A stretch of DNA of 64,000 nt, taken from contig JAGWHF010000012.1 of the NCBI GenBank assembly GCA_028866895.1, positions 1 through 64,000 on the forward strand, read 5' to 3'. This DNA comes from Nitrososphaerota archaeon. Its GTDB lineage: Archaea > Thermoproteota > Nitrososphaeria > Nitrososphaerales > Nitrosopumilaceae. The stretch's first letter is position 1. The number at the start of each line of letters is the position of its first letter. Made by a program: the position numbers and the translations under genes. Below the pieces are notes generated by a model. It did not search any database and was not told the DNA's origin. It saw only the letters and a list, made by a program, of their open reading frames with translations. Positions 57,886 to 64,000 of the stretch are shown piece after piece.

Positions 57886-57917
57886 TCAGCAGGAGTCCAA
57901 ATGTGGACTCCTGCTGA
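57886..57917. repeat. perfect 13-base hairpin upstream of a regulator gene
   Basis: TCAGCAGGAGTCC (57886-57898) and GGACTCCTGCTGA (57905-57917) are exact reverse complements around the loop AAATGT. The hairpin ends about ten bases before the TATA-like CTAAATAAC (57929-57937) of the gene at 57959. It could be an autoregulatory operator or the end of the upstream transcript. Confidence 0.7.
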
Positions 57918-60131: not shown

Positions 60132-60203
60132 GGGCTGGTAGTTCAGCGGTAGAATACCCGCCTTGCACGCGGGGGGTCTGGGGTTCAAATCCCCACCAGT
60201 CCA
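60132..60203 (+). tRNA. tRNA-Ala (TGC), likely integration site
   Basis: Cloverleaf of 72 bases: acceptor GGGCTGG/CCAGTCC, D-stem GTTC/GAAT, anticodon stem CCCGC around loop CTTGCAC (anticodon TGC), T-arm TGGGG-TTCAAAT-CCCCA, discriminator A. No intron. A tyrosine recombinase gene begins 86 bases downstream, so the 3' half is the probable attachment site. Confidence 0.93.
60184..60203 (+). other. putative attL in the tRNA-Ala 3' end
   Basis: The last 20 bases of the tRNA, from the T-loop to the discriminator, are the usual crossover site for archaeal elements carrying tyrosine recombinases. The matching copy (attR) would lie beyond the right window edge. Confidence 0.4.
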
Positions 60204-60288
60204 CCTACCACAGCGTCCAAAACCCCCTTTTGCATTTCACTCGCTTCAATCTCCGGAACCCATTAAAAGGGAATGCCGTTCTGTTGGT

Positions 60289-61602
60289 ATGCTAAAGTGC
60301 ACAAGACTTCTAGTAGATGACGATGTCAGGAGATGGTACGAGAATCTTTGTAGGGGAAGCAAGCTTACCGCAAGCGTAAGGCTACGAAGGCTTAACCTCT
60401 TTTGTATCCAACACAAGACATCTCCAGGGGAACTTGTATCGATTGGAAAACAGGATCCAAGAAAGCTTGATGACTTGTTGCACGATCATGTGGCAGAGCT
60501 TGAATCAAAAAAACATGCGCCAAGCTACATCGATGACGTTCTCAAGGCAGTAAGGTCATGGCTCTCCTACAACTATATCGAGCTTAAAAGAAAGATAAAG
60601 ATAGCAAACGCTGATGTTGCCGTAACACTGCAGAACGAGCAGATACCATCAAAGAAGGAGCTAAAAGAGATACTAGATGCGGCTACCAGAAGGGGACGTG
60701 CCAGCATATCCCTGATGGCGTTTGCAGGGCTCAGGCCGCAGGTTCTTGGAAAAGACGATGGTTCTGACGCGCTCCGTATGTCTGACATACCGGACTTGGG
60801 AATAGAAAACGAAACGATACATTTCAAGAGAATGCCTGCAATGATTGTGGTAAGGCCTGCGCTTTCCAAGGCGGGACACAGGTACATTACATTTCTTACA
60901 AGCCAAGGATGCCAGCATCTCTTAGGATACCTCAAGGGTCGCATCATGGAAGGTGAAAAAATAACAAACGACTCTCCTGTGATATCAGTAAACCAAGGAT
61001 GGGACAAGAAGGGAGGAAGGACAAGCAACCCTATTCTTACAACCAAATCAATCACAGTAGAGATTAGAGAAGCAATCTGGGCTGTAAAAAAGTCAAGACC
61101 ATATGTCCTGAGGTCATACTTTGACACCCAGCTTCTCATGGCTGAAAGCCATGGAAAGATAGCTCATGCATACAGGCAGTTCTTCATGGGCCACAAGGGA
61201 GACATGGAAGCTCGGTATACAACTAACAAGGGAAGGCTCTCAGACGAGATGTTGGAAGACATGAGGAGGACATTTCAGCAGAGCGAACAGTTCCTAACTA
61301 CAGAAGAGATCCAAGAAAAGGACAAGAAGGAACTACTGCTTGAGATGTGGCGCGAGCAGGCAAAGCTTTACGGAATAAATCCGATGAAGATAAAGATAGA
61401 GAAGCAAAGGGATGAAGAGGGTACACCAGGCCTTGATGACGAGATTCTTGCAATCAAGGACGCCATAATAAAATCAAGAGAGGAAAGATATCAGGGCAAG
61501 CTCGTCTCAGAGGAAAATCTTGTATCCTTTGTAGAACAGGGGTGGGACATCGTAAAGGAACTACAGAACGGCAAGGTCCTTGTGCGAAGGCGAGCTCTCT
61601 AG
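60289..61602 (+). CDS. tyrosine recombinase / integrase
   Basis: A 437-residue integrase. The catalytic set can be read as Arg149 (FAGLRPQV), Lys194 (ALSKAGHRY), Arg275 (VLRSYFDTQLL), His302 (FMGHKGD) and Tyr310 (EARYTTNKGRL). The second box has Leu where HxxR is more usual. Residues 1-115 are the helical core-binding domain and the last 100 residues are a charged extension. ATG 60289 is 20-30 bases after TATA-like CATTAAAAG (60261-60269). It is next to tRNA-Ala, the expected target. Confidence 0.88.
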   Translation: MLKCTRLLVDDDVRRWYENLCRGSKLTASVRLRRLNLFCIQHKTSPGELVSIGKQDPRKLDDLLHDHVAELESKKHAPSYIDDVLKAVRSWLSYNYIELKRKIKIANADVAVTLQNEQIPSKKELKEILDAATRRGRASISLMAFAGLRPQVLGKDDGSDALRMSDIPDLGIENETIHFKRMPAMIVVRPALSKAGHRYITFLTSQGCQHLLGYLKGRIMEGEKITNDSPVISVNQGWDKKGGRTSNPILTTKSITVEIREAIWAVKKSRPYVLRSYFDTQLLMAESHGKIAHAYRQFFMGHKGDMEARYTTNKGRLSDEMLEDMRRTFQQSEQFLTTEEIQEKDKKELLLEMWREQAKLYGINPMKIKIEKQRDEEGTPGLDDEILAIKDAIIKSREERYQGKLVSEENLVSFVEQGWDIVKELQNGKVLVRRRAL

Positions 61603-62043
61603 TACGCTCAGTATGGATTCTACTATCTTCTCCTTCTTTCTGTATGCCTTCTCTGATAGTATCGCAAGCAGCCCGTTTACAATCTCCTGGTACGGCTCTA
61701 TTGCCTTGCAAATCAAATAATCAAAAAACTCATGCCTCAGTGTCTTGACTGCCTCGTTGACGGTCTCAGAATAAATGTATACAGTTCTTCCACACACCTC
61801 ACCCTCCTTTGCAGAGTTGGCATCTGGAACCCATCTGAGCTGCAGTTCTTCCCCTTTCCCTGATGCTTTCTTGAGCCTTTCAAGCTCAGATTCTAACCTG
61901 TACAATACAGGATATGTGCAGGTCGATTTTAAGGGGCACGAGGATTCTTTTTCCTCCGGTGCTGATTTTGTGCAAGAAGCAAAAAGCTGCACGTGGCAAA
62001 AAATTTTCCACAAATCCCCAACTCGACGGTTCCAGAATATCAT
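61561..62043 (-). CDS. element-encoded protein with HExxD motif
   Basis: A 160-residue protein convergent to the integrase, overlapping its end by 42 bases. The N-terminal 45 residues are Cys-rich (five Cys up to STCTYP) and could bind metal. The helix KTLRHEFFDYLICKAIEPY has a HExxD/zincin-like pattern after strand GRTVYIYSET, as in small predicted metalloproteins. Enzymatic activity is uncertain. The start at 62043 lies only about two bases from the first hairpin. Confidence 0.55.
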   Translation of the reverse strand: MIFWNRRVGDLWKIFCHVQLFASCTKSAPEEKESSCPLKSTCTYPVLYRLESELERLKKASGKGEELQLRWVPDANSAKEGEVCGRTVYIYSETVNEAVKTLRHEFFDYLICKAIEPYQEIVNGLLAILSEKAYRKKEKIVESILSVLESSPSHKDLAVL

Positions 62044-62044
62044 T

Positions 62045-62112
62045 ACGTATCATAAAGGTGGACATCCAGCGGGAATATTTTCTCCCGTTAGATGTCCACC
62101 TTTATGATATGT
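62045..62112. repeat. tandem hairpin unit 1
   Basis: A perfect 19-base inverted repeat, 62048-62066 and 62091-62109, extended by three more pairs with one wobble. Inside it lies the conserved core CGGGAATATTTTCTCCCG (62070-62087). Confidence 0.85.
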
Positions 62113-62164
62113 AAAGATGTTACGTGGTAAGCCATCCTGGTGACAAGAAATAATCCTCTAGAAT

Positions 62165-62220
62165 CAAAAGATATACAATCGACGGGAATTTTTTCTCCCG
62201 CTGTTTGTTTATCTTTCTGA
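62165..62220. repeat. tandem hairpin unit 2
   Basis: An imperfect inverted repeat (about 62168-62187 with 62196-62216) around the core CGGGAATTTTTTCTCCCG (62183-62200). The stem sequence differs from unit 1 but mostly keeps self-complementarity. Confidence 0.75.
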
Positions 62221-62284
62221 TATGTAAAAATCCTACACAATATTGCAAGCCACTATGATGATAACATGGAATGATCCTCTAGAA

Positions 62285-62340
62285 TCAGAGGTGAATCATC
62301 CAACGGGAAAAAAAATTCCCGCTGGATGATTCACTCCTGA
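62285..62340. repeat. tandem hairpin unit 3
   Basis: TCAG/CTGA outer stem, a perfect 12-base stem (GTGAATCATCCA 62291-62302 with its complement 62323-62334) and the core CGGGAAAAAAAATTCCCG (62304-62321). The stem again differs from units 1 and 2. Confidence 0.85.
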
Positions 62341-62506
62341 ATTCATAACATTGTTCCATATGGTACAGACCCCCGAGATTAAGAACACCTGACAGTATGA
62401 GGCCGGGGACAAATTCCTCTGATTTTTGTTGCAGTGTTATCCTCTAAATCAAATTGCAGCGTCATTCATGTGTTATACATCAGGCGCAGCTTGCGGCCTG
62501 TCTCCG

Positions 62507-62538: not shown

Positions 62539-63378
62539 TTGACAGCAATAGGCCTTGACGTGGGAACCGGATTTGTGAAATGTGTCTCGGATGCCAAGAG
62601 GATAAGGTTCCCGTCGCTTTACGCTTACAGGCTGCCCCATGCGTGGGAAAAGGAGCAGAGGAAGGTCGAAGGGGTTGGCGATGCAGCAGCTGCCATGCTG
62701 CATGATCCTGATACCATATCAATCAGCCCTGTAATGTACGGAAGGCCGGTCAACGAGGAGGCATTTTCCAAGCTTGTAAGGGAGGCCGTGACATTAACTA
62801 CCGATAGCAGGGACGCGCTTGGCGAGAATCCACCGCAGATGGCATTTGCAGTGGGGCTGCCATATGAGGCCAAGTCAAGCCTTGGTGCCATACAAAAAAT
62901 GATAACAAGGCTGTACAAGCCGATAGCCTGTGATGTTGTGCCGCAGGCACTAGGCACAATTGTTTGCCAGTCCATGACAGACGGAATCGTGGTATCGATA
63001 GGCCGGGGAACCACCGAGATTGTAGCATTCTTGGGAAACGAGGCCAAGTGGGGCCAGTCACACCACCACGCGGTAGGTTACATCTCGTCCAAGATCGGGG
63101 GCGAGTACTCGTACCTTGACGATACAATATTTGCATCAGGGGAGAGTGCAAAGCTTGTTTCCGCACTTGCAGATTATATCATCAACAGGATACAAGCTTC
63201 AAGGCAGATCTTCCCAAGCCTGCAGGTAATAGTGTCAGGCAACGGCATACTGATACCTGGCATGGAGCAAGTCATCCGGTCAAGGATTGATGACATCATA
63301 ATACCGCAGGATCCTGTCATGTCAAATGCAATTGGGCTGTACAAGATTGCATCCTGGTACAAAGATTCGAGATGCTAA
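62539..63378 (+). CDS. actin-like ATPase (ParM/Alp-type, plasmid segregation)
   Basis: About 279 residues with the actin-fold ATP motifs: phosphate-1 AIGLDVGTGFVKCVS at the N-terminus, phosphate-2 IVVSIGRGTTEIVAF in the middle and the adenosine motif VIVSGNGILIPGM near the C-terminus. Length and order match archaeal ParM/Ta0583-like proteins that form filaments to segregate plasmids. The second phosphate loop has Ser-Ile-Gly-Arg where DxGxGT is common. TTG 62539 is preferred over ATG 62515 on promoter position. It overlaps the next gene by seven bases. Confidence 0.85.
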   Translation: MTAIGLDVGTGFVKCVSDAKRIRFPSLYAYRLPHAWEKEQRKVEGVGDAAAAMLHDPDTISISPVMYGRPVNEEAFSKLVREAVTLTTDSRDALGENPPQMAFAVGLPYEAKSSLGAIQKMITRLYKPIACDVVPQALGTIVCQSMTDGIVVSIGRGTTEIVAFLGNEAKWGQSHHHAVGYISSKIGGEYSYLDDTIFASGESAKLVSALADYIINRIQASRQIFPSLQVIVSGNGILIPGMEQVIRSRIDDIIIPQDPVMSNAIGLYKIASWYKDSRC

Positions 63379-63662
63379 GCCGCACCCAGAGAAGGTTTCT
63401 TACAGAACCGGATTCATTTTCAAGGAGGAATTCCAGGCAGCATCGCTATACCATAAGAAAGATGGTCGCAAGATCTCTTGATGATATCGAGCTTGTGATA
63501 AGGAACCACAATATTGTTGGGCTTGATATCAAATCATTGAAGACAAGGCTTGAGAGCCTTGTCATGTTGCTTGGGTCTGGCGATATCTCAGAGGATAAAA
63601 AAACGTCACCGGATATGCAGACAGGGGCAAACCCATACGTGAAAGCCAATTCCGCCTGGTGA
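63372..63662 (+). CDS. small basic protein, putative partner of the actin-like ATPase
   Basis: A 96-residue protein. The N-terminal half is strongly basic (SRTQRRFLTEPDSFSRRNSR, then RYTIRKMVAR) and could bind DNA; the second half is acidic and helical. Its ATG lies inside the end of the actin-like gene, so the two are translationally coupled. In ParM systems the downstream gene encodes the adaptor that links filament to DNA, and I infer the same role here. No ParR sequence signature is visible. Confidence 0.6.
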   Translation: MLSRTQRRFLTEPDSFSRRNSRQHRYTIRKMVARSLDDIELVIRNHNIVGLDIKSLKTRLESLVMLLGSGDISEDKKTSPDMQTGANPYVKANSAW

Positions 63663-64000
63663 AAATAGGCCTTTAATAGAAAACCCCTTTCTCTTCTTGA
63701 GCTCGAAAGCTCAAAACCAAAACCATACGTAAGACTGCGCAATACTGCGCAAATGCATCCCAGGCAACATCGCCACCCATTGTAGAATGTAAAACATTTT
63801 CCAAGAAAACTGTACAAGACTAAAACCTCCAAAACTACACAACTATATCCATATTGTCATCGTATGCAATGACGTCTGAACATGACTTGTAAAACCATCA
63901 AACGGCAGACCAAAAACCATACGACCAAGCTTGTAAATAAAAAATCAGACAAGAGAAAAAAGATACCCGGGATGATGACATCTTGTAAGATACTGCGTGA
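63663..64000. other. element region without clear gene
   Basis: About 340 bases. A small hairpin GAGCT-CGAA-AGCTC (about 63700-63713) and a direct repeat ACTGCGCAA/ACTGCGCAA (63734-63752) are seen. ACCATACG occurs at about 63722 and 63909. A frame may begin with the ATG at 63973 and run out of the window; the AT-rich GTAAATAAAAAATC (63932-63945) could be its promoter. Confidence 0.45.

Follow-up and report, generated by a model that had tools for sequence, protein, structure and literature searches.

Among the described systems closest to the locus presented here are the oriT mimics of staphylococci, which have an identical core and a divergent IR2; one plasmid there carries mimics of three subtypes (PMC8136818). 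Archaeal conjugative elements have no relaxase that has been recognised so far (PMC9905601, PMC6563490), nor is an oriT known for them, and a limited literature search found no described archaeal oriT. An oriT reading therefore has no positive control. The hairpins described below may be cis-acting DNA sites of the conjugation machinery in a family of integrative conjugative elements (ICEs) of this archaeal genus, either the oriT itself or its specificity part, and this is the reading that we prefer, though tentatively.

The window, the whole stretch of 64,000 nucleotides that was analysed, contains an element that we call W; labels in G and C stand for genomes and contigs. Three tandem hairpins lie in W between two divergent genes, alp and a small antisense gene (Table 1). 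They had been described in an initial annotation of this DNA, and the three units, their spacing of 113 and 121 and the linker repeats were all as it said. It had also called the first and third units perfectly self-complementary, which has to be corrected, as both have small internal mismatches beside the core. Conservation extends over a unit of about 84 bp, with the box CTCTAGAATCA before and TTCTGTAA/GATATGTAA after at a fixed distance, and the linkers between the 84-base units are about 30–40 bases and contain no genes. Folded as single-stranded DNA, the units gave z-scores of -11.7 (W1), -4.1 (W2) and -7.8 (W3), and none of 200 shuffles folded as well as any of them. Their strength was also compared with a background of 376 windows of 160 bp from the first 60 kb of the window, where W1 and W3 were matched by none and W2 by three. 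Elsewhere in the window strong hairpins are few: with a minimum score of 16, a scan returned W1–W3 and three others. The sole compact stem-loop among these others is at 57886-57917, between two same-strand genes.

Table 1. Coordinates of the hairpin units, their flanking boxes and the neighbouring genes in the window.
Feature	Position	Strand	Remarks
tRNA-Ala (TGC)	60132..60205	+	directly before integrase gene; presumed integration target
Integrase-like gene	60208..61602	+	160 of 400 genomes sampled from the class have relatives
Small gene (ORF160)	61561..61905	-	antisense to integrase 3' end; shorter if it starts near the TATA-like box
Hairpin unit W1	62037..62120	.	stem about 62054-62103, core 62070-62087
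W1 right flanking box GATATGTAAA	62106..62115	.	counterpart in W2 at 62219-62228 (alignment)
Hairpin unit W2	62150..62233	.	stem about 62167-62216, core 62183-62200; outer stem unique
W2 left flanking box TCCTCTAGAATCA	62154..62166	.	counterpart in W3 at 62275-62287 (alignment)
Hairpin unit W3	62271..62354	.	stem about 62284-62340, core 62304-62321; outer stem unique
alp, actin-like (ParM-type) ATPase	62542..63378	+	probable leaderless start near 62542
ParR-like small adaptor gene	63372..63662	+	downstream of alp

A covariance model, the search that the annotation had proposed, gave further copies in three of about 250 genomes of the family (six in G027, two in G016 and one in G005), which with the window's own makes four carriers among the 250, and in a sample of 400 genomes from the class it gave no carriers beyond those four; in these searches weak family members may be missed because the first filters were loose. 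Pattern scans gave only chance matches, in IMG/VR (two patterns) on inspection and in GTDB genomes among the matches listed. The six hairpins of G027 form an array in an element syntenic with W, and the nine units of the two arrays align without gaps, with one exception. In the alignment 88.9% of the cells pair and 12 of the 21 pairs change on both sides; the covariation score is 0.511 as compared to 0.187 in shuffles (0 of 500), and sliding the partner abolishes the signal. As would be expected of oriT mimics, the array units have a common core and outer stems that vary with compensation. The core, which the annotation took to be fixed over 18 bases, has the same form in W1–W3 (CGGGAA-N7-TCCCG) and is not strictly fixed in the relatives, where TGGGAA, CGGGAG and GGGGAA occur. 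Selection on the fold had been proposed as well, to be given up if no other genome kept the design with compensatory stem changes; other genomes do keep it, and the proposal therefore stands.

A structured RNA family, another suggestion made from the sequence, fared less well. The mismatches in the stems are strand-symmetric (GT 9, AC 9) and therefore give no pointer to an RNA from one strand. TATA-like boxes read by eye suggest that alp and the small gene are both probably leaderless, with the array between these divergent genes and upstream of both boxes. Furthermore, only tRNAs and 5S reached the gathering score in an Rfam search of the window, with no family for the hairpins, and Rfam on the hairpins themselves gave only sub-threshold miRNA-precursor matches. 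On these observations an RNA family is not supported.

The gene order tRNA, integrase, antisense small gene, hairpins, alp and parR-like gene is common to W and G027. The integrase-like gene is not named by any Pfam, PHROG or NCBIfam model; according to our own reading of its motifs, the product would be a tyrosine recombinase. As to a right attachment site, no matching downstream repeat of at least 14 bp was found on the contig. Small genes of the ORF160 type adjoin the integrase in antisense in the related loci inspected; the one in W has no confident Pfam or NCBIfam match, and it is possible that it acts as a recombination partner of the integrase. The alp product matches a PHROG partition protein (2.2e-9) and has its nearest relatives in G027 (67%) and G041 (60%), and ParR-like homologues follow the closer alp relatives. 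No relative was found in IMG/VR with alp, the alp alignment or the integrase, and a plasmid search with alp gave no match. An AbiEi/AbiEii pair and a PemK/MazF-like gene are located downstream on the same contig (L031 9647-12477, contig 71646-74476), and these genes probably lie on W.

The hairpins are tied to neither of the two larger neighbours. A tie to alp was rejected, since most alp-parR pairs have no hairpin upstream, and so was a tie to the integrase, since the locus of an 81% identical integrase in G019:C133 has no hairpin. Among 30 integrase loci scanned, hairpin units were found only with W, G027 and G016; the two hairpins of G016 lie beside a related integrase with no adjacent alp.

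The annotation had offered a partition centromere for the adjacent ATPase, and in W and G027 the array is indeed directly upstream of alp-parR, the usual parC place. The likeness is to parC of ParMRC, where repeated sites likewise precede the genes of an actin-like ATPase and its small adaptor. In a wider form, the hairpins could be element-specific operator or partition (parS/parC-like) sites, the DNA-binding protein of each element recognising its own palindrome, and a centromere is the natural version given the adjacent alp-parR. Consistent with this, G041 has a palindrome immediately next to the TATA-like box of alp, a parR-like remnant interrupted by a stop codon survives in G016 at 1.2 kb past the hairpins, and ICEs of this class are reported with ParB-like genes in the conjugation module (PMC6563490). 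A parC would, however, be expected upstream of parM in each system, and such hairpins were missing upstream of the other alp-parR pairs examined, with G041 and its one palindrome of a different kind as the exception. Hairpins also occur away from alp: in G016, and inside type IV secretion loci, where the checked sites are single-copy in the ICE contigs. Known parC sites are short direct repeats, not covarying hairpins, and for a simple protein-binding site there would be no need of complete compensatory pairing where the stem varies. A different conserved non-coding block is moreover found after parR in 12 loci. An operator or partition site is in our view rather unlikely, and the centromere proposal is weak; the interpretation in the initial annotation is, as a whole, partly supported.

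The block after parR is about 350–400 nt long (window 63680-64000) and has its own TATA-like box, with GGCAACATCGCCA at 63763-63775. It is present in the 12 aligned alp-parR loci of the genus and family, is not seen after parR in G027, and stops before an AGGAGGT box in most loci; it is a candidate for a structured leader or a partition site. In a more divergent alp group (L022, L024, L026, L028 and L029), palindromic AAAACCATANGGTTTT repeats were observed about 340 bp downstream of alp. The parR-like remnant of G016:C120, which has the stop in frame, belongs to L048 (7599-9142), where the usual alp partner is replaced by a PH/POB3-like gene also present in conjugative elements.

The single hairpin of G005 gave a different picture of where these structures occur. 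It lies in a type IV secretion locus, after pilin and small-membrane genes, and when the region was aligned to relatives of this locus, different hairpins were seen in the same place. A pilin search returned 13 loci, eight of which, G005 included, have a pilin 68-100% identical to that of G005. All of these close loci (8 of 8, pilin identity at least 68%) have a hairpin 392-426 nt behind the pilin gene. This is one site per conjugative element, among the conjugation genes, as an oriT should be; some of these loci have an additional weaker hairpin within 1.5 kb. The five more distant loci have hairpins nearby in two cases (G006:C1a and G023:C41) and none in two, and in one the contig is too short. 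The ICE hairpins are strong, five of the eight exceeding all 376 chromosomal windows and the other three being equalled by 3-6 windows. Their stems are mostly unrelated between the eight loci; the hairpins of G023:C18 and G019:C99 are 96% identical, and those of G000:C95 and G000:C10 have a weak similarity (score 0.27, 6 of 3000 shuffles). The arms are single-copy in G000:C95 (90 kb), in the G005 contig and in 60 kb of G023:C18. The Pfam content of the secretion locus includes VirB6/TrbL, prepilin peptidase, PrgI-like, T2SSE (VirB11/TadA) and TraG/VirB4-type ATPases.

In the G000:C95 and G005 loci the hairpin comes after the stop codon of a small pilin-cluster gene, which is a terminator-like position, and in G000:C95 it precedes the VirB11 TATA-like box. 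It is conceivable that the hairpins form transcript 3' ends, with a conserved structure and a free sequence after the pilin cluster, and that the copies in W insulate the integrase from alp transcription. Against this, no T run follows the hairpins that were read, the neighbouring chromosome has few hairpins of this strength, and tandem arrays of 3–6 lie between two divergent genes. Nor would terminators account for stem sequences common to unrelated positions in different elements (W1, G6, G005), or for the lack of a GT excess over AC mismatches. We consider terminators unlikely, more so than operator or partition sites; both of these explanations stay in consideration, the one for the terminator-like place of the hairpins in the ICE loci read in sequence, the other for the parC-like place of the array.

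Hairpins were also found in elements with no detected secretion genes, namely those of W, G027, G016 and G041, and there elsewhere than at the pilin spot. A tblastn search of these elements for the secretion-locus genes gave no match except a PH-like protein in G016; for W the search reaches the contig end at 74651, and genes further on are possible. The pilin search of the G027, G016 and G041 genomes gave no match. W1 is 96% identical to the G005 hairpin over 50 nt (BLAST E 4.6e-16, score 0.92), and G6 of G027 matches it almost as well (E 5.4e-14, score 0.85). Only these two of the nine W and G027 units closely match a hairpin of a conjugative element; the remaining units have the G005 core with other outer stems. 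The hairpin of G041 is similar to that of G023/G019:C99, and 0 of 3000 stem shuffles were as similar. BLAST with the G023 hairpin did not have it among the matches listed, and this likeness therefore rests on the stem-shuffle test. In both cases, W1/G6 with G005 and G041 with G023, a similar site is found on elements without detected transfer genes, as in oriT mimicry. The genome from which the window comes also has two conjugative elements, whose hairpins are unrelated. This counts against a conjugation site, as do the few close matches (two of the nine units), the few carriers (four of the 250 family genomes) and the terminator-like position at the ICE loci that were read.

The near-identity of W1, G6 and G005 is confined to about 50 bp, the flanks being unrelated, and could also come from small mobile palindromes (MITE- or REPIN-like) spreading between elements, their palindromy maintained by template switching and not by function. 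Such palindromes would not be expected to recur at one set place in eight secretion loci whose hairpins are mostly unrelated in sequence, nor to keep a fixed 84-bp architecture with flanking boxes, and there are at most six model-matching copies per genome. This explanation is very unlikely. Slightly less probable again is a replication origin of the excised element, which the annotation had also named. The structured, A/T-centred palindrome array in the module common to W and G027 (integrase, small gene, array, alp, parR) would suit an origin; no initiator was recognised among the neighbouring proteins scanned, however, and the ICE hairpin is single and in the secretion locus.

We return to the preferred reading, a DNA site of conjugation. 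Related self-transmissible elements carry one such hairpin at a fixed spot among their transfer genes, and the array may therefore consist of recognition sites for hitchhiking. We infer that the hairpin is recognised by a conjugation protein, starting or licensing transfer, and the recognised form would be folded DNA, as a cruciform or a single-strand hairpin. Each conjugative element would have a single hairpin, its stem peculiar to that element, in the interval between the pilin genes and the gene for the VirB11-like ATPase. W, with three variants in an array next to the integrase and no secretion genes detected, would be open to the action in trans of several ICE types and would need a helper. 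More tentatively still, the hairpins could be the first candidate oriT of archaeal conjugative elements, and the W array an oriT-mimic cassette of a mobilizable element that uses several conjugative types. For the question of how archaeal conjugation chooses its DNA, the covarying hairpin is a concrete candidate for the recognised site, and the fact that elements in which no secretion genes were detected reuse it in arrays suggests mobilization by hitchhiking among ammonia-oxidizing archaea.

The hairpins can be compared with two further kinds of site. With integron attC they would share a folded strand as the site, a structure that is conserved while the sequence varies, and an integrase-like gene nearby. 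Unlike attC, where gene cassettes lie between the sites, there are no cassettes between the units; the conserved core is at the tip and not at the base, and secretion loci have related hairpins with no integrase beside them. The likeness to the staphylococcal pWBG749 family (PMC4652767, PMC8136818) is one of arrangement. Our elements differ in being archaeal, with no relaxase known and with transfer and a cognate protein still hypothetical; the hairpins are much longer, and the mimics stand in a tandem array beside an integrase. In both, the conjugative element has one site subtype, built of a conserved core and a variable inverted repeat, which in pWBG749 sets the specificity. The non-conjugative plasmids of that family carry mimics, sometimes of several subtypes, and such a hitchhiker needs no transfer genes of its own.
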